From positions 1-62,980 of the forward strand of contig JAUNCQ010000006.1 in assembly GCA_030526515.1 (NCBI GenBank): DNA of 62,980 nucleotides. The letters are read 5' to 3'. A program made the translations under genes and the position numbers. The DNA comes from Coriobacteriia bacterium. Lineage in GTDB: Bacteria; Actinomycetota; Coriobacteriia; Coriobacteriales; Eggerthellaceae. How positions within the stretch are numbered: the stretch's first letter is position 1; each line of letters starts with the position of its first letter. Below are positions 4,742 to 37,753 of the stretch, in pieces. Below the pieces are notes generated by a model. That model did not search any database and was not told where the DNA came from. It worked only from the letters and a program-made list of their open reading frames with translations.

Positions 4742-4851
4742 GGGCACTCCTTTCCGCTGTCACGGGATTCCCGTTGTGGTCTGGGGATATTATGACTCAT
4801 TTTCTGGGCGGGCGAAATAGGCCAATCTAAGGGGCGAAATTGCCTCATCGA

Positions 4852-4898
4852 ATGTCGAACATCTTATGTTAGGATACCGCAGACCGAATGTTAAACAT
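4852..4898. promoter_or_regulatory. Tandem palindromic operator, two ATGT-N3-ACAT sites
   Basis: ATGT-CGA-ACAT lies at 4852-4862 and ATGT-TAA-ACAT at 4888-4898, both preceded by GA, exactly 36 bases apart, with a further overlapping ACAT-N3-ATGT at 4859-4869. They sit in the control region between the divergent DUF1836 gene and the Fe-S protein gene, as expected for a dimeric repressor or activator. Confidence 0.5.
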
Positions 4899-4941
4899 GC
4901 GATGCTGCAATGCTGCACCTGCTGAGCGAAAGGAACGCCGA

Positions 4942-6117
4942 ATGGCTCTGGACAAGAAGAAGGTCAAGCGACTGATCGGAATGATGAACCAGATGACGGC
5001 CGTGGAGATTCCTCCCATGGGTCCGATCATCCGCTGCTTCGAGCTGGGCATGGACGAGGACATCCTGAACTACCTGCTGCGCGTGGGTACCACCGGCCAT
5101 ACCAAGCAGAACCTGGAGGAGCTGTACCAGACCATGCGCGCCACGGGTGAGATCAGCACCAAGCGCACCTGGGACGAGCTGTGGGACGAGATCATGATCA
5201 TGAGCTTCATGGTTCCGTGCGAGCGCAGCAACGATACCTACGAGCTGGCTTCCATCTTCCCCGGTTGGATCGAGCTGTGCACCTCCGGCCCGCGCACGGA
5301 AAAGCGCGTCGCCATCATGGAGAGCTTCATGGACTTCTGGAAGCTGCTGAAGACCCTGAACGTGGGCCCCATCCGCAAGAAGTTCGATAAGGAGGGTCTG
5401 GAGATCAAGGCCGCCGGCGCTTCCCGCATGGGTTCACTGACCTCTATCACCCCGGCTCGCAGGTCCAAGAAGGCCATTGCCGTGGACGAGCCGCTGACCA
5501 GCGAGCAGACCGTGCTCCCCAAGGGCACCGCCTTTGAGATCCTTGACCGCAACAAGGACAAGATCGCGGTCATGAACTGCATCTGCCGCAACCACAAGGA
5601 GGTCAACGGCGACGGCAACTGCGACGTGGACATCCCGCTGCAGAGCTGCATGCCCGTGGGCAACATCGCCACCCAGCTGATCAACTCCGGCGTTGCAGAC
5701 GCCATCTCCTACGAAGACGCCGTGGAGCTCATGAAGGAGTTCGAGCGCAAGGGCTGCATCCACACCACCTTCCACTATGCCGGCAACGCCGACCATGACG
5801 AGCTGTGCATCTGCAACTGCTGCAAGGACTGCTGCCTGCTGTACGGCGGCTATCAGGAGGGCTATCTGTCCAAGGTCCAGGTGAAGGCCTACAACGTGCC
5901 CGAGATCGTGGACATGGACGCCTGCACCGGCTGCGGCAAGTGCAGCGAGTTCTGCCCCGCCGACGCCATCAGCTACAACAAGGCCACCAAGAAGCTGGAC
6001 TTCACCTTCGACCAGTGCGTGGGCTGCGGCCAGTGCGTGGTCCAGTGCGCCTTCGGCGTGCAGCGCATGGTGCCCAACGAGCGCCACGTGTACGCCATGA
6101 CCAAGAAGAAGCGCTAA
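4942..6117 (+). CDS. 4Fe-4S dicluster ferredoxin-type protein, hyp-linked
   Basis: 391 residues from ATG 4942 with a GAAAGG ribosome site; the upstream in-frame ATGs lie inside the operator region and lack one. The C-terminal 80 residues hold two classic 4Fe-4S motifs, CTGCGKCSEFCP and CVGCGQCVVQCAF, and a Cys-rich stretch (CICNCCKDCC) precedes them. A further Cys group (NCICRNH, then GNCDVD and QSC) lies near residues 210-240. The N-terminal 100 residues are helical and look like a small DNA- or protein-binding fold. The protein is cytoplasmic, with no signal or membrane helix. It is the first gene of an operon with hypA and hypB, suggesting electron supply or metal handling around nickel-enzyme maturation; the exact role is unknown. 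Confidence 0.75.
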   Translation: MALDKKKVKRLIGMMNQMTAVEIPPMGPIIRCFELGMDEDILNYLLRVGTTGHTKQNLEELYQTMRATGEISTKRTWDELWDEIMIMSFMVPCERSNDTYELASIFPGWIELCTSGPRTEKRVAIMESFMDFWKLLKTLNVGPIRKKFDKEGLEIKAAGASRMGSLTSITPARRSKKAIAVDEPLTSEQTVLPKGTAFEILDRNKDKIAVMNCICRNHKEVNGDGNCDVDIPLQSCMPVGNIATQLINSGVADAISYEDAVELMKEFERKGCIHTTFHYAGNADHDELCICNCCKDCCLLYGGYQEGYLSKVQVKAYNVPEIVDMDACTGCGKCSEFCPADAISYNKATKKLDFTFDQCVGCGQCVVQCAFGVQRMVPNERHVYAMTKKKR

Positions 6118-20369: not shown

Positions 20370-22022
20370 TTACTTGGATCCGTTCATGCTTTTCTGGATG
20401 GCGTCCTCGACAATGTCCAGGACCTCTTGGATAGAATGGACTTCCAGCTTCCGGTAGATATTCGCAATATGCGTCTTCACGGTGTGGATGGAGATGTAGA
20501 GCTCCTGCTGGATGAAAGCGGCGTTTCGACCGCGAGCTAGGTACGTGAACACCTCGCGCTCGCGTTTGGACAAGCTGTGCTTCAAGGCCAACTCATCTAC
20601 GGCTAGCTGCCAGTAGTCAACGGGTTCCTCGTCCTCTTCGGGCTGTTCCTCGGTCACATCGACCACGGGATATTCCGGCTCAATGGAAGAGCCATCTAGC
20701 TCACCGACGGAGTCGTTAGGCCACATGTCGTAGGGGACGATGTCAGTAACAAAGGGCATCAGGTAGATCATGAGCGCCAGAACGATGATGGCGGAGGAGA
20801 TCAGGTACAAAGCAACTCCAGCGCCAATGAAGTGCTTTAGCGCCACTCCAGCCAGCAGACCAAGCGCCATGCCGCCATACAGCATGCCGCGGTTCATGCC
20901 GATGAAGGGAATGAGGTTGCTTCCGAACTTCGTGGCCCACGCGAAGGCGAACACCATGAAGCCGAACTCGAATACGTTGAAGCCGGCAAAGGTAAGGGCG
21001 CGTGCTCCGTTTTCGCCGATCCAAGCCTGCTCCGGAAGCATGTCGATGGTGTTCAACGAGAAGAACATGGTCACGAACACGCCGATGGACATAATGATGA
21101 CGCTTGCCTGCTGGATAGTCATCAGGCCGTAGCGCTCAAGATACTTCTTAGGTAGCAGCATCAGGACAACCGCCGATAGCGTAGCGCCCAGGATTGGCCA
21201 AGTTCCAGCGAGAATCCAATAGGTTTCGCCCGAAGCTTCCTGAGAGAAGCTGCCCTGGCTGAAGCCGAAGACGATGCTGTACAGGAAGAAGAACATGCAC
21301 GGACCGACCATGTCGCTGATCTTGAGCTCCTGGCTTCCGGTTATCTCCTCGGTCCAGGGGTCGTACTTGCGACCGTACTTTTCTTCCTTGCGCTGATGAA
21401 CCAGGTACAGAAGGGTGGAGATGGCGGGAAGCAAAGCGAGAGCCACGTAGCGGAACGGGCGGGGGAGTAGAGCTATTGCTAGCGCAATGACGCTGCCAAG
21501 CCCCATGTTGAACGCCATATTTTTAAATACGCTCAGACCGTTGGCGCTATCCAGCGGGCTGGTGAGCCACGGATAGATCATGATTGCAGTTACAAAACCG
21601 AGGATGACGTATCCAAGAAGCGCTGCTTCGTCGGACACCGGCGGTTTGAATGCCGCGGTGCCAAAGCCCAGCACGCCAAGAACCAAGAACAGCGCGAGGG
21701 TAATGTAGATGCCCTTCTTGGACTCGCCCATGAACCAGCGGCGATACAGCGGTCCACACGAGCCAATGAGAAGATATGAGATAGCTAGGGAGACGTACAT
21801 GGCAATCTGGGGTGAGAAGCTCCTACCCAGATCCGTTTGAGCCGAAGGGTCGAAGATCGCTCCGAACACAACCAGGAAATGCCATGCGGCAACAAGGCAG
21901 AAACCACTGATGGAGAATCCGCTGAAAGAGCTGCTCCCGGAAGTGGTTCCGCCAGGCTTAAGATCGGCGGTTTCATTGACCTTGCTGGCTACGATTGAAC
22001 TATTCAAAACACTCACTCGCAA
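20370..22022 (-). CDS. Membrane-integrated LuxR-type transcriptional regulator
   Basis: 550 residues. About twelve membrane helices (roughly 35-430) are joined by an acidic linker (EEQPEEDEEP) to a C-terminal LuxR helix-turn-helix (LSKREREVFTYLARGR, then SIHTVKTHIANIYRKL). This architecture is characteristic of, and expanded in, Eggerthellaceae, where related regulators control neighbouring catechol-dehydroxylase genes. It is the natural candidate to sense the substrate of the adjacent island at the membrane and switch it on. The start is uncertain: TTG 22022, GTG 22016 and a later TTG are in frame and none has a clear ribosome site. A TATACT -10-like box lies at 22056-22061 on the minus strand. 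Confidence 0.85.
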   Translation of the reverse strand: MRVSVLNSSIVASKVNETADLKPGGTTSGSSSFSGFSISGFCLVAAWHFLVVFGAIFDPSAQTDLGRSFSPQIAMYVSLAISYLLIGSCGPLYRRWFMGESKKGIYITLALFLVLGVLGFGTAAFKPPVSDEAALLGYVILGFVTAIMIYPWLTSPLDSANGLSVFKNMAFNMGLGSVIALAIALLPRPFRYVALALLPAISTLLYLVHQRKEEKYGRKYDPWTEEITGSQELKISDMVGPCMFFFLYSIVFGFSQGSFSQEASGETYWILAGTWPILGATLSAVVLMLLPKKYLERYGLMTIQQASVIIMSIGVFVTMFFSLNTIDMLPEQAWIGENGARALTFAGFNVFEFGFMVFAFAWATKFGSNLIPFIGMNRGMLYGGMALGLLAGVALKHFIGAGVALYLISSAIIVLALMIYLMPFVTDIVPYDMWPNDSVGELDGSSIEPEYPVVDVTEEQPEEDEEPVDYWQLAVDELALKHSLSKREREVFTYLARGRNAAFIQQELYISIHTVKTHIANIYRKLEVHSIQEVLDIVEDAIQKSMNGSK

Positions 22023-23190: not shown

Positions 23191-24906
23191 ATGAGCGATC
23201 GTAAAGAATTCTCGATTTCGGAGGTTATTGACTCCTTCGGAATCAACGGTCACACCTGGATGATGTTTATTCTCCTGGGCCTGGCCAACATCTTCGACGG
23301 CTATGACTTCATGGTCGTTAACTCCACCAATACGTTCCTGGCTGCCTCTTTCGGCATGGTCACTGCTGACCCCACTGCTCCCACGGGTTACGTTGTTAAC
23401 TCCGCTGCAATGGGCTCCCTGACCACCTGGGGCCTGCTGGGCATGGTTCTTGGCGGTGCTTGCGGCGGCATCATGTCTGACAAGATGGGCCGTAAGAAGA
23501 TGCTGATCATCGCATGCCTGTTCTACGGTATCTTTACCCTGCCGCAGGCATTTGCTCAGGACCTGGGCTTCTTCGCAGCCTTCCGTCTGATCGCAGGCTT
23601 CGGCGTTGGCTCCTGCATTCCGGTCGTTACCACCTGCTTCTCTGAGATCATGCCTTCCAAGAACCGTGGCGTCTTCGTCACCTTCGGCATGGCCTTCATG
23701 GTTGCTGGCTGGGTTCTGGCTGGTCTGATCGCTAACCCGATCTGCAACACTCCCGGCAGCATCATGGGCGACTTCACCGGTGCTCAGATCACTCTGGCTT
23801 CCGGTGCTACCGCCAATGAGAACTGGCGTGTTTGCTACCTGATCGGCGCTCTGCCCGTTATCTACGGCATTGCTCTGATCTTCCTGATGCATGAGACTCC
23901 GCACTGGTACGCTAACAACGGCCAGAAGGAGAAGGCTATCGAGGCTCTGGCTCAGATCGAGAAGGCCACCACTGGTCACGTCACCGAGCGTTCCGCCGAT
24001 TGCCTGGTCGTTCCGCCCCGTCCGGCTAAGACCTCCGTCAACGTTCTGTTCTCCAAGAAGTACATCGTTGCTACCGCTGCTATTTGGACCACCTACTTCG
24101 TCGGCCAGTTCTGCGTTTATGGTATGAACGCATGGATTCCGACCTGGATGGGCCCGAATGGTGTGGGTTGGACCCAGCAGGACGCAGTTAATCTGCAGAC
24201 CTTCAACAACTTCGCAGCTATCCTGTCTAACGTCACCGTTGGTTTCGTTTCCGACAAGATTGGCCGTAAGAAGAACCTGTGTGCATCCTGGATCCTGTGC
24301 GCTGTCGCCATCATCCTGTGCTCCATGTTCGTCAGCCACAACAGCCTGATCCTGTGCTACGTGCTGATGCTTCTGTTCGGCTTCGCTCTGAACTACGCAA
24401 TCACCGCTGTTCAGCCGCTGATGCCCGAGTCCTATCCGACCGCTCTGCGTAACACCGGTACTGCATGGTGCCAGGCATTCGCTCGCTTCGGCGGCTCCGC
24501 CTCCTCCATCGTTCTGGGCGCTATCGCTTCCATGGCTATGTTCCATGCTGGCGGCGACCCGGCTGGTGCTACCAACTGGTCCATGGTTGTTCTGGTTCTG
24601 CTGATTCCGTTCGCTCTGGCAGAAGTTTGCTCCATTCTCTTCGTCGTCGAGACCGGCGGCAAGACCATGGACCAGCTCGCTGCTGAGGCCGCAGCTGACG
24701 ACCCGAACGACACTGGTATGGTGCCCTTCATCGTTATGATGTGCATCGCAGCCTTCCTGGCAGTTCTCTGCATCGTGTGCCCGCTTGTTATCCAGGGTTG
24801 GTCCAAGATGCCCATCGCTCTGCCGCTGATGGCTACCGGTCTGCTGCTGCCCTTCCTGTTCTTCTTCGTCTTCGCTGGCCCGCAGGCTCTGAAGAACCGC
24901 AAGTAA
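23191..24906 (+). CDS. MFS transporter, aromatic-acid:H+ symporter type
   Basis: 571 residues from ATG 23191, with AGGAGG upstream. The first helix carries LANIFDGYDFMVV, the DG(Y/F)D motif of the aromatic-acid symporter group, and motif A appears twice (GIMSDKMGRKK and FVSDKIGRKKN). Two extra helices at the C-terminus (about 510-565) raise the count to roughly 14. Expected role: proton-driven import of an aromatic acid or other organic anion, or substrate/product exchange for the molybdoenzyme downstream. Codon choice (GCT, GTT, CGT) is that of a very highly expressed gene. It is flanked by small Cys proteins upstream and a terminator downstream. The exact substrate cannot be read from the sequence. 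Confidence 0.8.
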   Translation: MSDRKEFSISEVIDSFGINGHTWMMFILLGLANIFDGYDFMVVNSTNTFLAASFGMVTADPTAPTGYVVNSAAMGSLTTWGLLGMVLGGACGGIMSDKMGRKKMLIIACLFYGIFTLPQAFAQDLGFFAAFRLIAGFGVGSCIPVVTTCFSEIMPSKNRGVFVTFGMAFMVAGWVLAGLIANPICNTPGSIMGDFTGAQITLASGATANENWRVCYLIGALPVIYGIALIFLMHETPHWYANNGQKEKAIEALAQIEKATTGHVTERSADCLVVPPRPAKTSVNVLFSKKYIVATAAIWTTYFVGQFCVYGMNAWIPTWMGPNGVGWTQQDAVNLQTFNNFAAILSNVTVGFVSDKIGRKKNLCASWILCAVAIILCSMFVSHNSLILCYVLMLLFGFALNYAITAVQPLMPESYPTALRNTGTAWCQAFARFGGSASSIVLGAIASMAMFHAGGDPAGATNWSMVVLVLLIPFALAEVCSILFVVETGGKTMDQLAAEAAADDPNDTGMVPFIVMMCIAAFLAVLCIVCPLVIQGWSKMPIALPLMATGLLLPFLFFFVFAGPQALKNRK

Positions 24907-25070: not shown

Positions 25071-25661
25071 CTACTTTGTTGCATCGGGGTCTTTTTGAAG
25101 CTCTTCGTAGGTTACGCCGACCTCGAGGAAGTTTCGCTTGAACTTCTTGATGAAGCTCGCCTTGGGGTCGTTTTCTCCGGTGCTCAAGCCCTTGTGGTGC
25201 TCCTTAATCATCATTCCGAGCACGACGGAAACAGCGGAACGAAGCTTTGACAGATCCTTTACCTTTACTTCGTAGCAAGGGCCATGATGGCGGAAGCTAT
25301 CTACGGTGCGGATGAGGCAGTCCTTCTTGCCGTTGTCCTCATTGACGAAGCTTGCGTTTCCATTGCTGATGCTGCCGTACATTTGCCATTTCATGCCCTC
25401 GAAGAAGTAGTGCTTGAAGATGGTGTGGGTAATCAGGCGATAGGTGTACTCGTCGACGCGGATTGCGTACTCAAGCGCCTTGTGATCGGGCTTGATGCGA
25501 GCGATAAGGCCGCCCGAACGCCCGATGATGTTGACGATGGACTTCTCTGATGCCCAGTCGCTTTCTGCTGTTGCAAACAGGGCTCCGTCTTCGTACCACA
25601 TCTCAAAATTCTGCTTGCCCTCAAGGGCATTGATAGGGATGTAGACCTTTTTGAATATCAT
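25071..25661 (-). CDS. LURP-one/Tubby-like domain protein
   Basis: 196 residues from ATG 25661 with AGGAG upstream. The beta-rich pattern of paired strands (FEMWYEDGALFATAESD, IARIKPDHKALEYAIRV, YEVKVKDLS) and the terminal hydrophobic helix (VSVVLGMMIKEHH) resemble the LURP-one-related/DUF567 twelve-strand barrel. Bacterial members have no settled function; related folds bind membrane lipids. It is transcribed against the island genes and does not share their extreme codon bias, so it may be a bystander. Confidence 0.5.
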   Translation of the reverse strand: MIFKKVYIPINALEGKQNFEMWYEDGALFATAESDWASEKSIVNIIGRSGGLIARIKPDHKALEYAIRVDEYTYRLITHTIFKHYFFEGMKWQMYGSISNGNASFVNEDNGKKDCLIRTVDSFRHHGPCYEVKVKDLSKLRSAVSVVLGMMIKEHHKGLSTGENDPKASFIKKFKRNFLEVGVTYEELQKDPDATK

Positions 25662-25853: not shown

Positions 25854-26378
25854 ATGAAGCTTGGTTCCACCGTTACCCTTACTTATACGGGTACGCTCGA
25901 GGACGGCACTGTTTTTGGTGTTGGTACTCCGGAGCAGCCCATGGTTTTCCAGACGGGTATGGACATGGTTATTGCTGGCCTGGAAAAGGAAATCCTGGAA
26001 ATGAACGAAGTGGGCGAGAAGCGCTCCTTCAAGGTTGGTATGTATGATGCATACGGTGAGTATCTGGAGGGCTGCCTGTCCCGTGTTCCCCGCGAGGCTA
26101 TGACCATTGACGCTAAGGTCGGCCGCCGCGTATGGCTCGCGGGCGATGGCGATGAGCGCGTTCCTACCACCGTGGTCGAGGTCACCAACAACGAGGTCGT
26201 TCTGGACCTGAACCATCCTCTGGCAGGCAAGGACCTGTTCTTTGAGGTCGAGATCCTTGCTATCGAAGAGCCGCCCGAGAACTTCGTTCCCGCTGAGGTT
26301 CGTAAGAAGGAGCAGGAGCGCCTTCAGCGCATGCTCGGCGCCGGTGGTGCTGAGGCTCCGCAGACCATGATGCTGTAA
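25854..26378 (+). CDS. FKBP-type prolyl isomerase, SlyD-like
   Basis: 174 residues from ATG 25854 (GGGAG site). FKBP fold: LTYTGTLEDGTVFGVG at the N-terminus, an inserted chaperone flap (roughly 70-125), and the SlyD-like closing strand LDLNHPLAGKDLFFEVEI. The His-rich nickel-binding tail of E. coli SlyD is absent; the tail ends with a charged helix instead. It should isomerise Xaa-Pro bonds and hold folding intermediates. It is followed 39 bases later by a trigger-factor C-domain gene, so the pair together supplies two of trigger factor's three modules, next to a molybdoenzyme gene. High-expression codon pattern. Confidence 0.8.
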   Translation: MKLGSTVTLTYTGTLEDGTVFGVGTPEQPMVFQTGMDMVIAGLEKEILEMNEVGEKRSFKVGMYDAYGEYLEGCLSRVPREAMTIDAKVGRRVWLAGDGDERVPTTVVEVTNNEVVLDLNHPLAGKDLFFEVEILAIEEPPENFVPAEVRKKEQERLQRMLGAGGAEAPQTMML

Positions 26379-26417: not shown

Positions 26418-27197
26418 ATGGCAAAGATGCGTTACACGCTGTCTTCCTATGAGCCTGTGTACGCCATTGCTCCGGAAGTTAAGATTCCGGAGTCCGAGGT
26501 GCAGGCGATGGCTATTCGTTGGTTGAAGCTCAACTACTGCAAGGATGGCCAGGAGCCCAAGCTGAATGACGTTTGGATCAAGAATAACGTCAAGGAGCTC
26601 AAGTCCGTCGATGAGCTGATGATCTTCATCCGCTACAACATGTACAAGGAGAACCGTGAGGTTCAGGAGCTCGCAGACCAGAATGTGGTTTGCGCTGAGC
26701 TGGCAAAGCGCCTGAACGAGGAGCTGCCCCAGGATCTGGTTGAGGAGAGCATCTACGCTGCTCGTCTGCGCCTGGACGAGATGCTTCGTCGCAATGTGAT
26801 GACGCCCGCTACCTTCTGCGAGCAGCGTGGTATCACCGAGGAGCAGCTTTATGCCGATATCGAGGCCAAGGCGATTCAGGGCCTGCGTGAGGACAGCGCT
26901 CTTGCAGCTTATGCCGACTACCGTGGTTACACCCTTGAGGCAGAGGACTTCTACGCTGTCATCCCGGGTAACACTATCGAGGAGAAGGCTTACAAGCGTC
27001 GTCAGATTGAGGCAGATGGCCGCCTGGCTGGCATGGAGGAGTATGCTCTTAAGACCAAGGCTCTGAAGGAGATCATGGAGAACGCGATGATCAAGCGCGT
27101 TGATGATCCGAGCATCGAATACGTCCGCTATGGAGACGTGAGCAAGGACGTGCTTAACGCAAACAAGCAGTTCCCTGACAGCTTCGTTTCTCTGTAA
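26418..27197 (+). CDS. Stand-alone trigger-factor C-domain-like chaperone
   Basis: 259 residues from ATG 26418 with GAGGGGG upstream. Residues about 100-230 follow the helical trigger-factor/SurA substrate-binding pattern: LPQDLVEESIYAARLRLDEM, then a short TPATFCEQRGITEEQLYADI turn and ALKTKALKEIMENAM. There is no ribosome-binding signature and no FKBP domain; the latter is encoded by the preceding gene. The N-terminal 95 residues are unrecognised. Inference: a dedicated holdase for the large molybdenum subunit encoded 460 bases downstream, comparable in role to TorD/NarJ chaperones but of a different family. Confidence 0.65.
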   Translation: MAKMRYTLSSYEPVYAIAPEVKIPESEVQAMAIRWLKLNYCKDGQEPKLNDVWIKNNVKELKSVDELMIFIRYNMYKENREVQELADQNVVCAELAKRLNEELPQDLVEESIYAARLRLDEMLRRNVMTPATFCEQRGITEEQLYADIEAKAIQGLREDSALAAYADYRGYTLEAEDFYAVIPGNTIEEKAYKRRQIEADGRLAGMEEYALKTKALKEIMENAMIKRVDDPSIEYVRYGDVSKDVLNANKQFPDSFVSL

Positions 27198-27658: not shown

Positions 27659-29986
27659 ATGGCATATGGTAAGCAGTGGCGTACCGAGCTCGAAGACGGC
27701 ACGGTTGTTACTCGTTCCAACACCTGGTCCCCCCCGGGATCTCATCCGGTTGGATATGGTGTTAAGGTCGTTACCAAGGATGGCGAGCTCATCCGCATCG
27801 AGGGCGACGACGACAACCCCATTACCACTGGTCGTGTGAACGCAATGAACCTTGCTCTGCGCGAGTACACCTATGCACCGGATCGCGTTATCTACCCGAT
27901 GAAGCGTGCATATGAGGATCGCGGCAAGGATAAGTGGGAGCGCACCACTTGGGACGAGGCTCTCGACACCATCTGCGAGAAGGTTCGCTACTATCAGAAC
28001 ACCTACGGCCCCGAGTCCATCGTCTGCTTCGGTGGCACCGGTCGTGAGGCTTGCATTTACTACTATGCACTGACCTTCTCCGTTCTGCAGTCCCCCAACT
28101 GCTGCTACACGCAGTCTGGTTGGTCCTGCTACGGCCCGCGTTGCTCCATCGCTGACTACGTCCTCGGCGCTGGTTATCCGGAGCTTGACTACGCTGGTCA
28201 CCTGCCTGGTTCTTACCAGGACCCCGCATACACCCTCTCCAAGTGGGTTGTTGTTTGGGGTAAGGAGCCCCTGCCCTCCAACGGCGACGGCTTCTTCGGT
28301 CACTGCCTGGTCGACATGATGAAGCTTGGTACCAAGATCATCTCCATCGACCCCCGCATCACCTGGGTTGGCGCTCATGACGGCAATATCAACCTGCAGG
28401 TTCGCCCGCAGACCGACGCTGCTCTGGCTCTGGGCCTGATCAACCTGATGTTCCAGAACGACGAGTACGATCACGAGTTCGTCGAGAACTGGATCTACGG
28501 CGTTGACGAGCTCAAGGAGCGCGCTGCCGAGTACCCGGTCGAGAAGGTTGCTGAGATCACCACCGTTCCGGCCGAGAAGATCGAGCAGGTTGCTCACATC
28601 ATCGGTACCGAGCGTCCGATCGGTTGGGCATGGGGTCTGGCATTCGACCAGAACAAGAACGGCGTTCAGCTGTCTCAGGCCATGATCATCCTGGCCGCCA
28701 TGGCTGGCTCCATCGACCGTCCCGGCGGTCTGACCCTGGGTCCCCCGTCTGCTCTGCTCGGCAAGTGGCGTATGGAGCAGCGTGGCGCTATGACCGACGA
28801 GGTTTGGTCCAAGCGTATCGGTGCTGAGGCATGGCCGGGCCTGTCCACGGGTATGTCCACCACCCAGCCTGACGAGACCCTGAACACCATGGAGACCCAC
28901 CAGCCGTACCAGCTGCGCATGGCTTGGTTCAACTCCTCCAACTTCCTGGCTCCGACCTGCTCCGCTCAGCCGAAGCGTTGGCATGACGCTCTGTGCGAGT
29001 CCATCGAGTTCTGCGTCGTCCAGGACATCATGCAGACCCCGACTTCCATGGCTGTGGGCGACTACTTCCTGCCCATCTCCACCTGGGCTGAGCATGACGG
29101 CATCGTCCTGACTCACTACGGTCGTAACACCGTGTTCATGGGCCCCATGAACAAGGCTCTGACCGTCGGCGAGGCTAAGTCCGACATCGAGATCTGCCTC
29201 ATGTTCGGTGCTCGCCTGAACCCCGAGTGGTGGCCGTGGTACAAGGAAGGCGAGGGCGGCAAGCTCGACCTTGACAACCTTGCTGAGGCTGTTGTCCAGT
29301 TCTTCTCCGATCAGACCGCTGAGCTCGGCTTCGACTTCAACGAGTTCCGTGAGATGGGTCTGTATCAGCCGGGCGCTCATGGCTTCGAGTACGAGAAGTA
29401 CGAGAAGGGCCTGCTGCGCTTCGACGGCGAGCCGGGCTTCAACACCATTACTGGTCAGATCGAGGCCTACTCCATCCTGTACGAATCCTGGGGCGAGGAT
29501 CCGCTGCCGTACTACTACGAGCCGGACTACAGCCCGTATCGTCCGAACATGATCGAGAATGGTGCTGCACGTCAGTTCCCGCTGATCTCCACCTCTGGTT
29601 CTCGTCGTTACAGCTCCTTCCACTCCGAGCATCGTCATGTTCCGTCCCTGCGTCAGATCGATCCGTGGCCGTGGGTCCAGATGAACCCCGCAACCGCAGA
29701 GAAGTACGGCGTCACCGACGGCGACTGGTGCGAGGTCTACAACATGTTCGGTCAGGCTCGCTTCAAGGCCGAGATCACCCCGGTCCTGAAGGACGGCATC
29801 ATCAACTGCGCTCATGGTTGGTGGTTCCCTGAGCAGGACGGCGAGGAGCCCAACCTGTTCGGCGTCTTCAAGTCCAACTTCAACCAGCTGGTTCCCCATA
29901 TGGACATCGGCAAGCTGGGCTTCGGCGCTCCGTACAAGGGTGTTATGTGCAACATCCGCCGCGTTCGTTCCCTCGACAACGACTAA
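27659..29986 (+). CDS. DMSO-reductase-family molybdoenzyme without Fe-S cluster
   Basis: 775 residues from ATG 27659 (AAGGAAG site). Bis-MGD oxidoreductase family: YAPDRVIYPMKR, RTTWDEALDTI, the active-site stretch QSGWSCYGPR (152-161, probable Mo ligand Ser or Cys), and a C-terminal dinucleotide-binding domain (VQMNPATAEKYGVTDGDWCEV). The N-terminus, where the family has CxxC-x3-C and a later Cys, reads SNTWSPPGSHPVGYGV...GRVNAMN, so no [4Fe-4S] centre can form. There is no Tat signal, so it is cytoplasmic. Relatives without this cluster include pyrogallol-phloroglucinol transhydroxylase, whose partner subunit still carries clusters. Here the partner encoded next door also lacks them. Very strong expression-type codon bias. 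The substrate is unknown; an aromatic compound is likely from the adjacent transporter. Confidence 0.85.
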   Translation: MAYGKQWRTELEDGTVVTRSNTWSPPGSHPVGYGVKVVTKDGELIRIEGDDDNPITTGRVNAMNLALREYTYAPDRVIYPMKRAYEDRGKDKWERTTWDEALDTICEKVRYYQNTYGPESIVCFGGTGREACIYYYALTFSVLQSPNCCYTQSGWSCYGPRCSIADYVLGAGYPELDYAGHLPGSYQDPAYTLSKWVVVWGKEPLPSNGDGFFGHCLVDMMKLGTKIISIDPRITWVGAHDGNINLQVRPQTDAALALGLINLMFQNDEYDHEFVENWIYGVDELKERAAEYPVEKVAEITTVPAEKIEQVAHIIGTERPIGWAWGLAFDQNKNGVQLSQAMIILAAMAGSIDRPGGLTLGPPSALLGKWRMEQRGAMTDEVWSKRIGAEAWPGLSTGMSTTQPDETLNTMETHQPYQLRMAWFNSSNFLAPTCSAQPKRWHDALCESIEFCVVQDIMQTPTSMAVGDYFLPISTWAEHDGIVLTHYGRNTVFMGPMNKALTVGEAKSDIEICLMFGARLNPEWWPWYKEGEGGKLDLDNLAEAVVQFFSDQTAELGFDFNEFREMGLYQPGAHGFEYEKYEKGLLRFDGEPGFNTITGQIEAYSILYESWGEDPLPYYYEPDYSPYRPNMIENGAARQFPLISTSGSRRYSSFHSEHRHVPSLRQIDPWPWVQMNPATAEKYGVTDGDWCEVYNMFGQARFKAEITPVLKDGIINCAHGWWFPEQDGEEPNLFGVFKSNFNQLVPHMDIGKLGFGAPYKGVMCNIRRVRSLDND

Positions 29987-30005
29987 TCGAAAGGAAGTGA
30001 CATAA

Positions 30006-30365
30006 ATGGCAGATCAGAAGTACGCTCTTCTGTGCGACTACACTTACTTCTCTGGCAACCATGCAGCTGAAATCGCATGCAAGGAGGAGTTCCAGCTTCC
30101 CATCGATCAGTGGGGTATCAAGGAAGTAGAGATCGGCCCCTTCAAGAAGGGTGAGGGCTGTGACGGCGACGCTTGGGAGTGGAGCTACATTCCCGTGCCG
30201 ACTTCCATCTTCTCCGAGTGGTATGGCACCAACGGCAAGAAGGCCGGTCAGCGTCCGCTGGCTTGCCAGGTCGAGGAGTCTGCTTCTCTGTACTACGGTA
30301 CCCTGGAGGAAATGCAGGCCAAGATGGCTGAATTCGATCGCCCGATGGTTCTGTTCCAGCTCTAA
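30006..30365 (+). CDS. Ferredoxin-like small subunit that lost its cluster cysteines
   Basis: 119 residues, starting 19 bases after the molybdoenzyme gene. The scaffold matches the soluble two-cluster partner subunits of DMSO-reductase-family enzymes: KYALLCDYTYFSGNHAAEIACKEE where relatives have CTGCHxCEVAC, then LPIDQWGIKEVEIGP, IPVPT and YGTLEEM...VLFQL. Of the first CxxCxxCxxxC set only the last Cys (25) remains; the others are Phe15, Asn18 and Ala21. The second set (CDLC...PxCxxxC) is gone except possibly Cys87. The frame is intact, with strong codon bias and a good ribosome site, so it is a retained structural subunit and not a pseudogene. Confidence 0.8.
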   Translation: MADQKYALLCDYTYFSGNHAAEIACKEEFQLPIDQWGIKEVEIGPFKKGEGCDGDAWEWSYIPVPTSIFSEWYGTNGKKAGQRPLACQVEESASLYYGTLEEMQAKMAEFDRPMVLFQL

Positions 30366-30438: not shown

Positions 30439-30714
30439 ATGACTCGTGACGAGATCATGGACATGGAAGCCAAGGACATCGCTGCTCTTCTGAACGAGAA
30501 GGTCGCTGAGGGTGCTGACAAGGCTGGCGCCCTGGAGGCTCTCGGTCTGACCCAGGCTGACATCATGAAGGCTCAGGTCTTCTGGGTTAAGGGTGAGTTC
30601 AAGGCTCGCGCTTGGGCTGGTTACACCTCCACCAAGCGTTCCGGCAACGAGCTGGGCGACTCCGCTCAGGGCGTTGGCGGTTCCGACCCGTCCAAGGGCT
30701 ACGCTGGCGTCTAA
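30439..30714 (+). CDS. Small acidic protein of the molybdoenzyme operon
   Basis: 91 residues from ATG 30439, with GGGAGG upstream. The N-terminal half is helical (EAKDIAALLNEKVAEGADKAGALEALG); the C-terminal half is Gly/Ser-rich and flexible. There is no Cys, signal or membrane helix. Same extreme codon bias and same transcript as the enzyme subunits, ending at a strong terminator, so it probably belongs to the enzyme or its maturation. No family recognised. Confidence 0.6.
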   Translation: MTRDEIMDMEAKDIAALLNEKVAEGADKAGALEALGLTQADIMKAQVFWVKGEFKARAWAGYTSTKRSGNELGDSAQGVGGSDPSKGYAGV

Positions 30715-30738
30715 TCGCCAATTAGGCTCTTACTTCCG

Positions 30739-30773
30739 GGGCCTGCTGCTTGATTGCAGCAGGCCCTTTTTTT
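30739..30773 (+). terminator. Terminator of the molybdoenzyme operon
   Basis: An 11-bp stem (30739-30749 with 30756-30766) followed by seven T. Confidence 0.95.
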
Positions 30774-30926: not shown

Positions 30927-31262
30927 ATGGCTACTGAGGAAGAGATCCTTGCTGAGGTTGCTGAGCTGGGTCGCCTGAGCGAGCGCGCTGAGGATGTTAT
31001 GTACAACATCACGCTGCGTCAGGACGAGCTGGGTCGCGAGCCTTCCAACATGCTTCTGTCCAAGATGAAGGCCGATCCGATCTATCAGGAGATGATTGAT
31101 CGCGAGTACATGACCTATGAGGTCTTCGGCTCTTCTGCAATGAAGGACAACGTGGTAAGCCTGTACGTTACGTTGAAGGGCATGCGCTATTGCATCCTGT
31201 TCGGTGATGAGATTCATGCTCGTCGCAAGGTTGACCCTGCAGGTCGCGTAAAGCAGCAGTAA
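30927..31262 (+). CDS. Small soluble protein at the island's end, unknown function
   Basis: 111 residues from ATG 30927 with AGGAGG upstream. The N-terminal 50 residues form a helical, possibly coiled-coil segment (EEEILAEVAELGRLSERAEDVMYNI), followed by a strand-rich part (VSLYVTLKGMRYCILFGDEIHAR). One Cys, no membrane helix. Codon bias resembles the molybdoenzyme operon, and the gene has its own palindrome-rich control region and terminator. It might act as a chaperone or sensor for the island; no family recognised. Confidence 0.6.
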   Translation: MATEEEILAEVAELGRLSERAEDVMYNITLRQDELGREPSNMLLSKMKADPIYQEMIDREYMTYEVFGSSAMKDNVVSLYVTLKGMRYCILFGDEIHARRKVDPAGRVKQQ

Positions 31263-31345: not shown

Positions 31346-33757
31346 ATGAGTCCTGTAGGCGGCTTTGATGGTCATGACTCTCTCGTGGGTGCCCCGCGCT
31401 TTGTCTCGGGAGAGGGCGAGGGTAACTTCATCGGGAGCAAAGAGTACTATGAGCAGCTCAGAGCCTCTTCGCCTATTCGCGAGGAGCGATCTGGTTCTGC
31501 GGTTGGCTCCATTCCCGGTGGTACACTAGGCGAAGTGTCGTTGGTGTTTGGAGGTTTTGCGCCTATGGCGTTGAGCGATCCGGTTGCATCTGCTGAGCAG
31601 ATAAAGAAGTCCCAGGAAACCATTGCGCGTTTTAGGGACGCGCGCATCCGTGCCGCCGAACTAGAGGCTGCACGGTCTTCGTCGGCCAAGACGTACGTAG
31701 ATTTGCGTGGCAATACTTGGCATTACGTTGTTTTGGGCGAGGCCTCTATTCGCCTTGACGGCTGCGATATTGTATCCGAGACCGTCGAGGTGCCTGATTC
31801 GATTGAGGGAAAGCCTGTAGAGGTGCTTTCTTCTGACGCATGCTCTGCTAGCAAGGTAGTTCGTGAGATCGTCTGTCCCGATACGGTTACCTTGGTTAAG
31901 CCCTATGCGTTTAGGGGAAACAGGCGGCTTAAGAGGCTCGTTCTTCCTGCCGGCGTCACGCACTTTGATTTTACCTGGATTCATTGCTGCGATTCTCTTG
32001 AGGAGCTGCACCTTCCTGGTGCTTTGGAGAAGCTCACGTCCGCGGTGTTCGATGGTCCTGAGCTTAAGAGGCTGTACATTGGCGCCTCTCTCAAAGACGT
32101 GGTTCCCGGTGCGTTTACTCATAGCAAACTTGAGCAAGTCTTCATTGATGGCTCGAATCCTTTTCTCAAAACCGATGGTAACGCCATCTACTCTCATGAT
32201 GGTGATTGGCTGGTAGCTTTGGCCACTCCGGTGGAAGAATACGCAGTTCAGCCTGGGTGCAAAGGTTTGGCGAAAAAGGCGTTCGGTACGTTTTCCGCCG
32301 TCCGCAGGGTCAGCCTCCCCGAAGGGCTGCTGGTGCTTGACGAGTTCGCATTAGCTCGTACCGGCATTGAGGAGTTCGTTGCGCCGGGATCTTTGCTGCG
32401 CATTGCTGATAAGGCGTTCTACAGGTGCAAGAAACTCGAGAGGGTTGACCTGGGCCAGGCCCTGGTCGACCTGGGCTCTGAGGCGTTTACGGGCACCGCC
32501 ATCAATGAGCTGCGCATTCCCAAGAGCATCCGCACCCTGGGAAAAGATCCTGCGGCCGAGTCGAAGCTGACCTACTCTGGTCCCGATGCTACTTTCAGCA
32601 TTGAGGAAGGTTCCGATTATCTGTCTTTGGATTGTCAGGGCTGTCTGTATTCGCAGTCTGAGGATGGCGTGCATTTCGCCCGCATGATGGATCCCTTTGC
32701 CAAGGATGTTCGCATTGCCGAAGGCGTGAAATACGTGGATGAGGGCGCGTTCTACAAGCATCGGAACATCAAAAGCGTGTACCTGCCGAAGGGTGTTGTC
32801 TGCGTAGGGAAGGGCGCGTTCAAGGACTGCTTCGCCCTTCAAGAGGTTACCGTGCCCAGCACGCTCGAGCGACTTGAGGACGAAGCGTTTTTGGATTCCG
32901 GCCTTCTGTCCTTTAGGATTCCTTCGAGTCTGAAGCATATTGGCGAGCATGCTCTGGTAACCCATGGTGCTCATCATGGGGAGGTTGCGCCTTCGTTGAG
33001 ATCTGTTGACGTTGCTCCCGACCATGACGTCTTCTATATGAACCGAGGAATGCTTCTTGAGCGTCGCGCTCATGGAGGCATTCGCGTGCTGCTGTGCATG
33101 AGCGGCCAGGAGGTGCTGCGAATTCCTGACGAGGCGACGGCCATTGCCGCCTATGCGTTGAACGGGCAGCGTGGCGTTCGTGAGCTGTACTTGCATGACG
33201 GCGTGCGTACCGTTGGCGTATGCGGCCTGGGCGTTGATTCTGCCCTTGAACTGGTGCATATTCGCCTGGCTGAACCTTTGCAGGGCCATAATGAGTTCGC
33301 CATTCGCTTCCCCATGACGCAGCGCGGCAAGCAGCAGGTGTGTCTTGTTCTGGGCATGCTTGATCGCATTGACGTTGCTAAGATACTGCGCCACTACGAT
33401 ACCGCCATCGCCAATGCCATGAACTACAACGGCAAGGATAGCGTAGGCATGTCGAAGTACGAGCAGGCTACGCGCATTTTGGCTCGCCTTGGCGACCCGG
33501 TGTTCATGGAGCCGTCCAACAGGCAGCTTATGCGGCAGATCATCGAGTCGGACCTGGTTGAGATCTGCGTGGACATTGCCCGTCACGACGACCGCGGCGC
33601 CTTCGAGGGGCTTTTCGCCCAAGGGTTCTTGGACGCTGACAACCTGGACGCAGTCATTGATCGCGTTGCCATGGTGCAGGATGCATCTGTGACGGGGTAT
33701 CTGCTCGAGGCCAAGCGACAGCGGTTCGGCGTTCCCGCCTTCGACTTTGACCTGTAG
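31346..33757 (+). CDS. Cytoplasmic BspA-type leucine-rich-repeat protein
   Basis: 803 residues from ATG 31346 (GAGGTGG site). From about residue 130 to 640 it carries LRR_5/BspA-type repeats with the recurring pattern I...AF..C..L..V.LP..L..I...AF (examples: ALARTGIEEFVAPGSLLRIA, AFYKHRNIKSVYLPKG, AFKDCFALQEVTVPSTLERL). BspA proteins are usually exported, but this one has no signal peptide or anchor. The C-terminal 150 residues are helical (KYEQATRILARLGDP). It heads an operon with VWA and MoxR genes, the next ribosome site overlapping its stop, so it is probably an adaptor or scaffold of that system. Confidence 0.75.
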   Translation: MSPVGGFDGHDSLVGAPRFVSGEGEGNFIGSKEYYEQLRASSPIREERSGSAVGSIPGGTLGEVSLVFGGFAPMALSDPVASAEQIKKSQETIARFRDARIRAAELEAARSSSAKTYVDLRGNTWHYVVLGEASIRLDGCDIVSETVEVPDSIEGKPVEVLSSDACSASKVVREIVCPDTVTLVKPYAFRGNRRLKRLVLPAGVTHFDFTWIHCCDSLEELHLPGALEKLTSAVFDGPELKRLYIGASLKDVVPGAFTHSKLEQVFIDGSNPFLKTDGNAIYSHDGDWLVALATPVEEYAVQPGCKGLAKKAFGTFSAVRRVSLPEGLLVLDEFALARTGIEEFVAPGSLLRIADKAFYRCKKLERVDLGQALVDLGSEAFTGTAINELRIPKSIRTLGKDPAAESKLTYSGPDATFSIEEGSDYLSLDCQGCLYSQSEDGVHFARMMDPFAKDVRIAEGVKYVDEGAFYKHRNIKSVYLPKGVVCVGKGAFKDCFALQEVTVPSTLERLEDEAFLDSGLLSFRIPSSLKHIGEHALVTHGAHHGEVAPSLRSVDVAPDHDVFYMNRGMLLERRAHGGIRVLLCMSGQEVLRIPDEATAIAAYALNGQRGVRELYLHDGVRTVGVCGLGVDSALELVHIRLAEPLQGHNEFAIRFPMTQRGKQQVCLVLGMLDRIDVAKILRHYDTAIANAMNYNGKDSVGMSKYEQATRILARLGDPVFMEPSNRQLMRQIIESDLVEICVDIARHDDRGAFEGLFAQGFLDADNLDAVIDRVAMVQDASVTGYLLEAKRQRFGVPAFDFDL

Positions 33758-33766
33758 GAGGTTTCC

Positions 33767-35413
33767 ATGGCATTGCCGATGAACCCACGGATCAAAGATG
33801 CCAAGCTTGAGCGCAGGCGCAAGGAGGAGGAGCTGGCGAAGGACCTGATCGAAGAGGCCCGCGTTCAGCTCATGCTGAAGTTCCGGTTCCTGGACCTGGC
33901 GCTGTGGCGTATGGGGTTAGAGCCGCTGCGTGCGAGCATGCGGTACCCCGTGGCCACTGACGCCAAGCAGGTGTTCTTCGACCCGCCGCGTATTCTTGCG
34001 CGCTTTATGGCGTCCTTCGACGAGGTGGTGCGTGATTATCTGCATATGGTGATGCATTGCGTGTTCAGGCATCCGTTCATCAAGGACTTCAAGAACAAGG
34101 AGGCCTGGTGGCTGACCTGTGACGTCATTGCCGAGAGCGTGATCTTGGACATGTGCGGCGGCCGCTTTGCCTGCGAGGATGACGCTGCGTGCCAGCAGGC
34201 AATCGACGAGATCAAGCTCATGGTGGGAACCATGACGCCCGCGAAGGTGTATACGTTCTTGCGAGACGTGGTTACGGCGCCTGAGGGAACGGCGTACCGT
34301 GGCATCGACCAGAGCCGTATTGCGGAATGGCATGACCTGTTCGAGCGGGACAACCACGAGGCCTGGCCTGCCAGCATGACCGAGCAGGAGCAGCAGCAGC
34401 GTGACGAAGCCGTGGAAACGGACGAAGACGAGCCTGAGCAGAACGACTCCATGCAGCTGAATCCGTCCTCCGACGATCGGGAACAGCCTGAGCAGGAGCC
34501 CGAGGACATGCAGCTGCTGCCCACCGACCAGGAGGACGACAGCTCCGAGGATGACGGCACGGACACCGCCGAAGACAACGGCCAGGACGAGGCTGACGTA
34601 GACGGCAGCAACGCTGACCAGGGCGAAAGCGAAAACGACAGCGACTCTCAGGAACAGAAGGACTGGGAGGAGATTGCCAAGCAGATCGAGATGAACCTGG
34701 AGACCTTCTCCAAGGAGTGGGGCGAAGAGGCAAGCAGCCTGGTGCAGAACCTGCATCTGGCCAACCGCAAGGTCTACGACTACTCCACGTTCCTGCGGCG
34801 CTTCATGTGCATCAACGAGCAGATGAAGATCAACGACGACGAGTTCGACTACATCTACTACACCTTCGGCATGGACATGTACGGCAACACGCCGCTGATC
34901 GAGCCGCTGGAGTACAAGGACGTCAAACGCATCAGGGACTTCGTGATTGCCATTGACACCTCCGAATCCGTCAACGGCGAGCTGGTCCGACGGTTCATCG
35001 AGCACACCTTCAGCATCTTGAAGGAATCCGAGGACTTTTCCACCAAGGTCAACATCCACGTGGTGCAGTGCGACTCCAAGATCCAGTCGGACCACAAGAT
35101 CACCGACCTGAGGGATGTCGACCGGCTCATGGACAACTTCGTCATCCGTGGTTTCGGCGGAACTGATTTTCGTCCCGTGTTTGACTATGTTGAGACCCTC
35201 AGGAAGCGGGGAGACCTCACCGACCTGAAGGGTCTGCTGTACTTCACGGACGGCTTGGGAGATTTCCCCGAGCGGCCGCCGGATTATGACACCGCCTTCG
35301 TGTTCATGGATTCGGGCGAAAGGGATCTGCCGCCCGTTCCGCCTTGGGCCATGAAGGTGGTCGTTGATGAGCTGGGAATCAACAAGCTCAAGAGCCGCGT
35401 GCGGCATTCTTAG
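33767..35413 (+). CDS. VWA protein with degenerate metallopeptidase domain
   Basis: 548 residues from ATG 33767, whose TAGGAGG site overlaps the upstream stop. N-terminal DUF2201-like domain: the protease motif HExxH...H is HMVMHCVFRH (93-102), keeping the His residues but with Met in place of the catalytic Glu. A Glu/Asp/Gln-rich linker (about 205-300) leads to a C-terminal VWA domain with an intact MIDAS: DTSES (397-401), Thr466 (GGTDF) and Asp495 (FTDG). VWA partners of MoxR ATPases (ViaA, CoxE) recruit substrates. Here the MoxR ATPase is encoded directly downstream. Confidence 0.75.
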   Translation: MALPMNPRIKDAKLERRRKEEELAKDLIEEARVQLMLKFRFLDLALWRMGLEPLRASMRYPVATDAKQVFFDPPRILARFMASFDEVVRDYLHMVMHCVFRHPFIKDFKNKEAWWLTCDVIAESVILDMCGGRFACEDDAACQQAIDEIKLMVGTMTPAKVYTFLRDVVTAPEGTAYRGIDQSRIAEWHDLFERDNHEAWPASMTEQEQQQRDEAVETDEDEPEQNDSMQLNPSSDDREQPEQEPEDMQLLPTDQEDDSSEDDGTDTAEDNGQDEADVDGSNADQGESENDSDSQEQKDWEEIAKQIEMNLETFSKEWGEEASSLVQNLHLANRKVYDYSTFLRRFMCINEQMKINDDEFDYIYYTFGMDMYGNTPLIEPLEYKDVKRIRDFVIAIDTSESVNGELVRRFIEHTFSILKESEDFSTKVNIHVVQCDSKIQSDHKITDLRDVDRLMDNFVIRGFGGTDFRPVFDYVETLRKRGDLTDLKGLLYFTDGLGDFPERPPDYDTAFVFMDSGERDLPPVPPWAMKVVVDELGINKLKSRVRHS

Positions 35414-35443
35414 CAATAGCAAGTCGTAGGAAGGACTTGAGAC

Positions 35444-37753
35444 ATGAACATCGCATCCGCCAAGAGGCAGATCAAGGACACGGTCGAGGCGTACCTGCAG
35501 CGCGACGATGCGGGCATGCACGTGATCGAGCCGGTGCACCAGCGCCCCATCTTCCTGCTGGGCGCTCCGGGCATTGGCAAGACCGCCATCATGGAGCAAG
35601 TTGCGCAGGAGCTTGGCATTGGCATTGTGTCCTACTCCATGACGCACCACACCCGCCAGAGCGCCCTGGGCCTGCCGCGCATCGAGCATCGTGAGTTCGA
35701 GGGCTACGAGTACGAGTCCTCCGAGTACACCATGTCCGAGATCGTGGGCTCGGTGTACGACTACATGAAGCGCTCCGGTACCCGCAAGGGCATTCTGTTC
35801 CTGGACGAAATCAACTGCGTGTCCGAGACGCTCTACCCGAGCATGCTGCAGTTCCTGCAGTTCAAGACCTTCGGCAAGCATCGCGTGCCGGAGGATTGGG
35901 TGGTCGTGTGCGCCGGCAATCCGCCGGAGTACAACCGCTCGGTGCATGAGTTCGACATTGTGACCATGGACCGCCTGCGTGAGATCCAGGTGGAGCCCGA
36001 GTACGGCGCTTGGAAGACGTATGCCCACGCCAAGGGCGTGCATCCTGCCGTCACGTCGTTCCTGGAGGCCAAGCAGGACTGCTTCTACAAGGTGGAGTCC
36101 CGCCCCGGTGGCGGCAAGTCCTTCGTGACGGCCCGTGGCTGGGAAGACCTTGCCGAGGTCATTGCGCTGTACGAGAGCCTGGACAAGCCGGTCAACCGCG
36201 ACCTCTTCGTCCAGTTCCTGCGTGATGATGAAATCGCCGACGCGTTTTCCGTGTACTACACGCTGTTCCAGAAGTATCGCTCCGACTACCAGGTGGCCAA
36301 CATCCTGGCGGGCGATGCGACCCTGAGCATCAAGAATCGCGCCCGCGACGCTGAGTTCGACGAGCGCATTGCCCTGATGGGCCTGCTGCTTGACGCCCTG
36401 GCCGCCAGCTGCAACGCCGCCCTTGACCAGGAGGGCATTGTGACCGAGCTGCGCGACCTGCTGCGCCTGGCCAAGCCCGAGCTGCTGGCTGGAGCGACCG
36501 TGGAGGACGCGGTGGTCGCGCGTATGACCGAGCGGGAGCGCACCTTGGCCCGCAAGATCGATGCTGGCGTGATTCCCAAGTCGAAGATTCGCAAGGAACG
36601 CCTGGTGCTGGGCATTTTGCGTGACATGGTGGCCCTGTGCGGCACGAACCGCACCCCTGAGGGCGAAATGGCCTTCTTCACCATTGAGACCGCCTACAAG
36701 GAGCAGGTCGCCAAGATCAAGGAGCTGGTGGCGGAGGCCAACGCGAAGCTGGACAACGCCTTTGACTTCGTGGAGGAGTGCTTCGGCAACCGTGAGATGC
36801 TGGTGTTCGTGGCCGAGCTGACCACGCGCCAGGCCACCACTACCTTCGTTTCCCATTACGGCAATCAGAAGTATTTCGCCCACAACGAGGGCCTGAAGGT
36901 GGACGCCACCATCTCCGGACTGACCGAGCGCGTGAAGAACCTGGGCGTGAGCGATCATCCCCAGCAGTTCGACGCCAGCGGAGCGGCTGGGTCCACGGGA
37001 GACGCCATCAGGATGGGCTCCGCGATCTCTGCTAACTGGAAGGTGAGCGAGCAGCAGGAGTACGAGCAGGGCATGGAGCGCTACTATTGCGGCAAGGCGT
37101 TCGAGTGGGGCTTTGCCAGCATGAGCAAGATGACCTTGCCTGACGGCGAGCTGCGGGGCAAGCGCGTGCTTGACGTGTGCTGCCGTCGCGGCAAGGGCGT
37201 GTACAAGCTCAGCGCCAAGGTGGGAGCCCAGGGCTGGGTCACCGGCGTTGACTGGCAGCCCACGTACATCGAGGATGCCCAGGCGGGCCAGGACCGCGCG
37301 TGGCATGACAACGGCCTGAAGGCCAGCAACATGGAGTTCCGCGTGGCGTATCCGGAGGATCTGATCCATGCGGGCATTGGCACGGAAACCCAGGACGTGG
37401 TGTACATCAACAACGTCATGACGCTGCTGTACGACCAGCCTCAGGCCCTGCGCGAGTTCCATAGGGTGCTGAAGCCGGGCGGCCTGCTGATCATGGAGAC
37501 CACCTTTGCCGACCGCGAGCGCGATCCCAAGGTGGTGGAAGGTGCCCGAGAGATCGGCAACAGCATCCAGGCGGCCCTGACCAAGGAGCAGAACCTGATA
37601 TGGCTGCGTGAGGCGGGCTTCCAGGATCCTGAGGTAAAATCTGCGTATGCTGTGGGTGCTGCCCGCGGATTCCAGGCGGGCACCGAGGTGGGTACCGTCG
37701 AGGACGTCGAGGACGTTCAGTATCAGGCCGTGGCCCTGTACGTGAGGAAGTAG
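35444..37753 (+). CDS. MoxR-type AAA+ ATPase fused to a methyltransferase-like domain
   Basis: 769 residues from ATG 35444, with AGGAAGG upstream. Residues 30-250 are an AAA_5/MoxR ATPase: Walker A GAPGIGKT (40-47), Walker B ILFLDEIN (118-125), sensor I CAGNPPEYN. A helical middle follows. From about 540 to 769 comes a class I SAM-methyltransferase fold: motif I VLDVCCRRGKG (glycines partly replaced), acidic GVDWQP, and FHRVLKPGGLLIMET, closest in style to UbiE/ArsM enzymes. MoxR ATPases with VWA partners remodel or insert cofactors into enzymes. The methyltransferase fusion is unusual, and its weakened SAM loop makes catalysis uncertain. Confidence 0.75.
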   Translation: MNIASAKRQIKDTVEAYLQRDDAGMHVIEPVHQRPIFLLGAPGIGKTAIMEQVAQELGIGIVSYSMTHHTRQSALGLPRIEHREFEGYEYESSEYTMSEIVGSVYDYMKRSGTRKGILFLDEINCVSETLYPSMLQFLQFKTFGKHRVPEDWVVVCAGNPPEYNRSVHEFDIVTMDRLREIQVEPEYGAWKTYAHAKGVHPAVTSFLEAKQDCFYKVESRPGGGKSFVTARGWEDLAEVIALYESLDKPVNRDLFVQFLRDDEIADAFSVYYTLFQKYRSDYQVANILAGDATLSIKNRARDAEFDERIALMGLLLDALAASCNAALDQEGIVTELRDLLRLAKPELLAGATVEDAVVARMTERERTLARKIDAGVIPKSKIRKERLVLGILRDMVALCGTNRTPEGEMAFFTIETAYKEQVAKIKELVAEANAKLDNAFDFVEECFGNREMLVFVAELTTRQATTTFVSHYGNQKYFAHNEGLKVDATISGLTERVKNLGVSDHPQQFDASGAAGSTGDAIRMGSAISANWKVSEQQEYEQGMERYYCGKAFEWGFASMSKMTLPDGELRGKRVLDVCCRRGKGVYKLSAKVGAQGWVTGVDWQPTYIEDAQAGQDRAWHDNGLKASNMEFRVAYPEDLIHAGIGTETQDVVYINNVMTLLYDQPQALREFHRVLKPGGLLIMETTFADRERDPKVVEGAREIGNSIQAALTKEQNLIWLREAGFQDPEVKSAYAVGAARGFQAGTEVGTVEDVEDVQYQAVALYVRK

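Follow-up and report, generated by a model that had tools for sequence, protein, structure and literature searches.

The window analyzed here is a 62,980-nucleotide stretch of DNA from a Coriobacteriia bacterium of the family Eggerthellaceae (contig JAUNCQ010000006.1, positions 1 to 62,980). Two adjacent genes encode a large (catalytic) subunit of 775 aa (27659..29986, + strand), a bis-MGD enzyme of the DMSO reductase superfamily, and a small subunit of 119 aa (30006..30365, +), identified by alignment and profile search as a degenerate ferredoxin-type partner; both reading frames are intact, as the first-pass annotation had stated. A third gene on the same strand, orf3 (30439..30714), encodes an unannotated protein of 91 aa with no Cys residues and no Pfam match. 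The large–small–orf3 unit is closed by a predicted intrinsic terminator with a 12-bp stem and T-run (30738..30767, +), the strongest stem in a search of the region that returned four terminators against 3.2 expected.

An MFS transporter gene resembling aromatic acid/H+ symporters (23191..24906, +) keeps its upstream position in Gordonibacter, Paraeggerthella, Raoultibacter, and Ellagibacter; a conserved 196-aa protein is encoded on the opposite strand between it and the large subunit (25071..25661, −). On the 3′ side of the terminator, a conserved 111-aa protein (30927..31262, +) is found in nearly all syntenic loci. The 196-aa and 111-aa proteins accompany the operon across genera, and relatives preserve the gene order MFS–196-aa protein–large–small–orf3–111-aa protein. 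Genes for an FKBP-type isomerase (25854-26378, +) and a trigger-factor-C-like protein (26418-27197, +) also lie near the operon in several relatives; their association with the enzyme is unproven. The region 31346-37753 encodes a BspA-type LRR protein and proteins of 548 and 769 aa, a block syntenic 3′ of the operon in most relatives.

Cluster ligands in the two subunits

A Pfam search of the large subunit recovered the Molybdopterin (9.6e-22) and Molydop_binding (6.5e-17) domains and no N-terminal Fe4S4 domain; the subunit has no Tat signal, indicating a cytoplasmic enzyme. In alignment with relatives, the region of the N-terminal cluster motif (residues 20-64; 27716..27850, +) reads SNTWSPPGSHPVGYG...GRVNAMN, and Cys is present at none of the five columns where one relative or another carries it. 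These results bear out the earlier description of a DMSO reductase family frame devoid of its N-terminal Cys motif. Met63 replaces the basic residue that follows the last cluster Cys, which is Arg in relatives retaining cluster ligands (hereafter clustered) and Lys48 in acetylene hydratase. His29 (codon 27743-27745), beside the vacated site, is kept in all full-length Gordonibacter-type relatives and is invariant in the cluster-free clade; by spacing, we take it to occupy the place of Asp13 in the N-terminus of acetylene hydratase. The predicted Mo ligand, Cys157 (28127..28129, +), aligns with Cys141 of acetylene hydratase and is found in every sequence compared, clustered and cluster-free alike; the surrounding QSGWSCYGPRC is nearly identical in the clustered sister L079. 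Arg649, likewise invariant in the cluster-free clade, aligns with what is presumably Arg606 of acetylene hydratase in the published numbering, and the active-site segments match those of clustered dehydroxylase relatives.

At the eight ligand columns defined by clustered relatives, the small subunit reads F15 N18 A21 C25 / F69 W72 A86 E90, retaining one of eight ligands (C25). The alignment thus agrees with the first-pass annotation on the replacement of three Cys of the first set by Phe15, Asn18, and Ala21; no ligand of the second set is left. C25 is the only invariant Cys among the small-subunit orthologues aligned, and the small subunit of one locus (L072) lacks even this residue. While the small subunit itself has no Pfam match, its clustered paralogue on contig C50 of this genome, to which it is 35% identical, gives a Fer4_11 hit (4.9e-6), and a profile from the joint alignment of small subunits finds 2vpw_B and formate dehydrogenase beta chains, which are iron–sulfur partner subunits. 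Because the joint profile finds such subunits, the small chain is best described as a degenerate yet conserved member of the Fe–S partner scaffold, which had earlier been proposed to persist. No substitute four-Cys motif was seen in the large subunit, the small subunit, or orf3, the invariant Cys residues being scattered; neither subunit contains a recognizable Fe–S wire, as had been claimed. AlphaFold2 predictions from shallow alignments gave poor models for both subunits (mean pLDDT 64.8 and 41.5), and a PDB fold search with the poor small-subunit model returned no match.

Distribution and history of cluster loss

The cluster-free small subunit is common to 29 loci at 76-92% identity (from Gordonibacter, Paraeggerthella, Ellagibacter, Raoultibacter, Adlercreutzia, and Slackia, as well as MAGs), and the full-length large subunits adjoining cluster-free small subunits are 81-94% identical. 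Across 398 genomes of the class, approximately 40 loci contain a cluster-free small subunit; these form a discrete group, with at least 59% identity as compared with at most 45% for the remaining small subunits. When the search was widened to the phylum, no small subunit from beyond the class was clearly cluster-free; the single outside match had E 9e-9. Estimates of dN/dS (NG86) are ~0.1-0.2 for both subunits, indicating purifying selection. Sequence error was rejected as the origin of the missing Cys, which are lost in dozens of genomes: orthologues across the Eggerthellaceae have the same loss while evolving under purifying selection, and close homologues, which had been suggested as a means of exposing a local error, reveal none. 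A second, diverged cluster-free pair occurs in a Raoultibacter genome (L074; G156:C2:358000-374000), with a large subunit 75% identical, and an Adlercreutzia genome (G226) carries three copies of the cluster-free small subunit, on contigs C99, C79, and C3.

In gene trees, the cluster-free large subunits form a clade with 100/100 support nested inside clustered Gordonibacter-type catechol dehydroxylases. The window pair shares the features of this type (two subunits, no Tat signal, position within the clade), and the sampled clustered members carry eight Cys in the small subunit and about four in the large. As judged from these trees, the cluster-free enzyme is a descendant of an Fe–S-carrying Gordonibacter-type catechol dehydroxylase. 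The first-pass annotation had assumed that catechol dehydroxylases keep their clusters, an assumption that this family breaks. A review has described the Fe–S motif as absent from the catalytic subunits of Gordonibacter enzymes (PMC11574389), from which the sampled sequences mostly differ; most, including L078, L098, L099, L102, and L104, have four N-terminal catalytic-subunit Cys at noncanonical spacing.

Partial losses were found in two other lineages. In L073 and L076 (the latter from a Raoultibacter genome), most large-subunit motif Cys are lost and all eight small-subunit Cys are kept; the enzyme pairs lie at L076:5010-7334 and 4646-5014 (−) and at L073:2230-4617 and 4655-4996 (+), and show a transhydroxylase-like arrangement that arose within the catechol dehydroxylases. 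A single large-subunit Cys loss shared by L073/L076 and the window clade is disfavored (AU p = 0.03), a moderate value obtained on a tree from which the motif region had been left out and for a group chosen after the first tree. Within a clade from another family of the order (L109-L117), one large-subunit motif Cys has been lost: L109, L111-L114, L116, and L117 have Ala in place of the last motif Cys (GRLCIRA), with most others kept. This clade perhaps represents an early stage of cluster loss. As L073/L076 branch separately and have lost large-subunit Cys alone, the simplest reading of these sequences is that cluster loss was probably stepwise and repeated, beginning with the large subunit. 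The orf3 gene is conserved 3′ of the small subunit in the cluster-free clade and its nearest clades (L073/L076 and L109-L117); it was considered as a marker of cluster loss and rejected, given its presence with clustered L109-L117 and, weakly, L079/L122.

Probable correspondence with Gp Hcdh

The enzyme designated Unk-9 has been characterized as Gp Hcdh, with a 770-aa catalytic subunit and an "accessory subunit," and was counted by its authors among Gordonibacter-type enzymes (Bae et al., 2024; PMC11585353). Its reported hosts are Gordonibacter, P. hongkongensis RC2/2 A, E. isourolithinifaciens DSM 104140, and R. massiliensis; the LuxR-type regulator beside it is closest to E. lenta HcdR (44%), and El Hcdh is 1193 aa long (PMC11585353). 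The hosts of the cluster-free orthologues fit this list, and the orthologues in Gordonibacter, Paraeggerthella, and Raoultibacter, counted from the conserved start, have exactly 770 residues. P. hongkongensis contains only three such enzymes, of which the other two are ~788 and at most 756 aa. An E. lenta-like genome (G070) encodes a LuxR regulator of 569 aa close to a molybdoenzyme that has a Tat signal and is exactly 1193 aa long; in a comparison of six other genomes (three Gordonibacter, Paraeggerthella, Raoultibacter, and Ellagibacter), the best matches of this regulator adjoin the cluster-free operon at 44-52% identity, the next ones being far weaker, and the adjacent HcdR-type regulator is the reciprocal best match in these relatives. 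The window large subunit is ~85% identical to its Gordonibacter orthologues, above the 72% SSN threshold for isofunctional clusters (PMC11585353), and the MFS and LuxR neighbors of Gp Hcdh are found in relatives of the window locus. Taken together, the length, hosts, two-subunit makeup, and adjacent regulator lead us to infer strongly that the family is Gp Hcdh.

This identification is indirect, depending on length, hosts, and regulator, and the HcdR-like membrane LuxR that adjoins the operon in six relatives and the Gp Hcdh locus is absent beside the operon of the window organism; the family might then be a neighboring, uncharacterized cluster-free enzyme. However, the length of 770 aa, the hosts, and the reciprocal-best regulator all point the same way, and no other such enzyme occurs within ~30 kb of the HcdR-type regulator in a G. 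pamelaeae genome, leaving a distinct enzyme with a very small probability.

Identity with Gp Hcdh would connect the family to published biochemistry. Gp Hcdh, purified in air from its native host, has one Mo per protein; in assays with methyl viologen and dithionite, its kcat for the dietary compound hydrocaffeic acid is 28.3 per min and its Km 0.24 mM. Its reaction is the two-electron reductive dehydroxylation of hydrocaffeic acid to 3-(3-hydroxyphenyl)propionate, and it is needed for hydrocaffeic-acid-driven ATP formation (PMC11585353). Among catechol dehydroxylases in the human gut, it is reportedly the most highly transcribed. The absence of Fe–S clusters is unmentioned in the published text, and the word "iron" does not appear in the main text of PMC11585353. 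In the main texts of the open-access journal articles searched, no earlier statement was found that Gp Hcdh is without clusters in both subunits. Loss of several otherwise conserved residues might instead mark a pseudo-enzyme or noncatalytic scaffold whose Mo chemistry has been lost; against the invariance of Cys157, His29, and Arg649, purifying selection, and the 1:1 Mo content of Gp Hcdh, this is scarcely credible.

Reaction chemistry and electron delivery

These comparisons make it probable that the operon encodes a Gp Hcdh orthologue whose two subunits have both lost their clusters, an enzyme that would catalyze two-electron catechol dehydroxylation with a direct electron donor. As proposed, the cytoplasmic, two-subunit bis-MGD Mo enzyme would reductively remove the para-hydroxyl of a catechol, converting hydrocaffeic acid to m-hydroxyphenylpropionic acid with two electrons. 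By analogy with DorA, TorA, and BisC, a donor that diffuses or docks close to the vacated cluster site may reduce Mo directly; candidate donors include a flavoprotein, NAD(P)H, or ferredoxin. The small subunit may persist in a structural or docking role, and together with orf3 is a candidate docking or assembly part.

The first-pass annotation had instead proposed a redox-neutral reaction (hydroxyl transfer, hydration, or isomerization) with no need for external electrons. The lack of Fe–S ligands is compatible with such chemistry, and the closest solved structure, acetylene hydratase of Pelobacter acetylenicus (2e7z; 259 bits), in which the Cys metal ligand and active-site Arg align with those of the window enzyme, is redox-neutral, though its cluster is kept. 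That hydratase is a one-subunit tungsten enzyme that retains [4Fe-4S] and catalyzes hydration, whereas the window enzyme has two subunits and no N-terminal [4Fe-4S] motif. The large-subunit Cys loss also resembles pyrogallol–phloroglucinol transhydroxylase (4v4c), whose large subunit is likewise without a cluster; however, the transhydroxylase small subunit bears clusters and that of the window does not, and the relationship is remote. Transhydroxylase (AthL) was rejected as the closest relative, at 36 bits to the profile as compared with 259 for acetylene hydratase. DorA, TorA, and BisC are DMSO reductase family reductases long known to be free of Fe–S clusters, so that net redox chemistry is possible without clusters; unlike the window enzyme, these have no ferredoxin-derived small subunit, and they are remote from it (DorA, 124 bits). 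The active-site segments, moreover, are those of clustered dehydroxylases, and Gp Hcdh is a viologen/dithionite-driven reductase that supports ATP formation (PMC11585353). As the Gp Hcdh reaction is a net two-electron reduction, the redox-neutral proposal fails for the family, and we consider such chemistry quite improbable in the window enzyme.

Net reduction could alternatively be served by a separate Fe–S protein, such as a ferredoxin or paralogous dehydroxylase small subunit, permanently bound to the complex and supplying its electrons. Operon-bearing genomes do also encode clustered small subunits, and respiratory coupling needs some donor. However, the syntenic neighborhood of the operon showed no ferredoxin gene, Gp Hcdh was described with two subunits, and electrons from any such protein must still reach Mo without a large-subunit relay cluster; a permanently bound Fe–S partner is therefore unlikely. 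Within the preferred reading of direct donation to a cluster-free reductase, a more specific scheme may be advanced tentatively, with somewhat less than even confidence: the most transcribed gut catechol dehydroxylase would be a respiratory Mo reductase without any Fe–S, in which the subunit derived from a ferredoxin, alone or together with orf3, docks a soluble flavoprotein or NAD(P)H, the pterin/Mo center is reduced directly, and cluster loss was stepwise and repeated, beginning in the large subunit.

The published scheme for Gordonibacter-type enzymes passes electrons through an Fe–S small subunit. Dodh, Cldh, and Eadh1/2 have the same two cytoplasmic subunits, fold, active-site motif, and nearby MFS transporter as the window locus, but are described with an Fe–S small subunit (PMC11887054, PMC12771579), as opposed to one of eight ligands in the window. 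If the most transcribed gut catechol dehydroxylase is indeed without clusters, this scheme cannot hold for the family, and a new account is needed of how polyphenol reduction is coupled to ATP formation. Relatives that bear clusters, those with loss in the large subunit only, and those with double loss would constitute a natural series for testing the contribution of Fe–S clusters; the cluster-free enzymes may also prove easier to express and tolerant of air during purification.

In the window, the place of the relatives' HcdR-like regulator is taken by a LuxR-type regulator with an N-terminal membrane region (20370..22022, −), which resembles HcdR only in the HTH domain and is nonorthologous. 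An HcdR-like regulator (32%) is encoded on another contig of the genome (C30; L195:1232-2803), with no dehydroxylase adjoining it in the 14 kb read. Given that the HcdR-type regulator is missing beside the window operon, its inducer may not be the same, nor perhaps the precise catechol; from orthology, the substrate in this organism would be hydrocaffeic acid or a close catechol. The genome also contains moaA.
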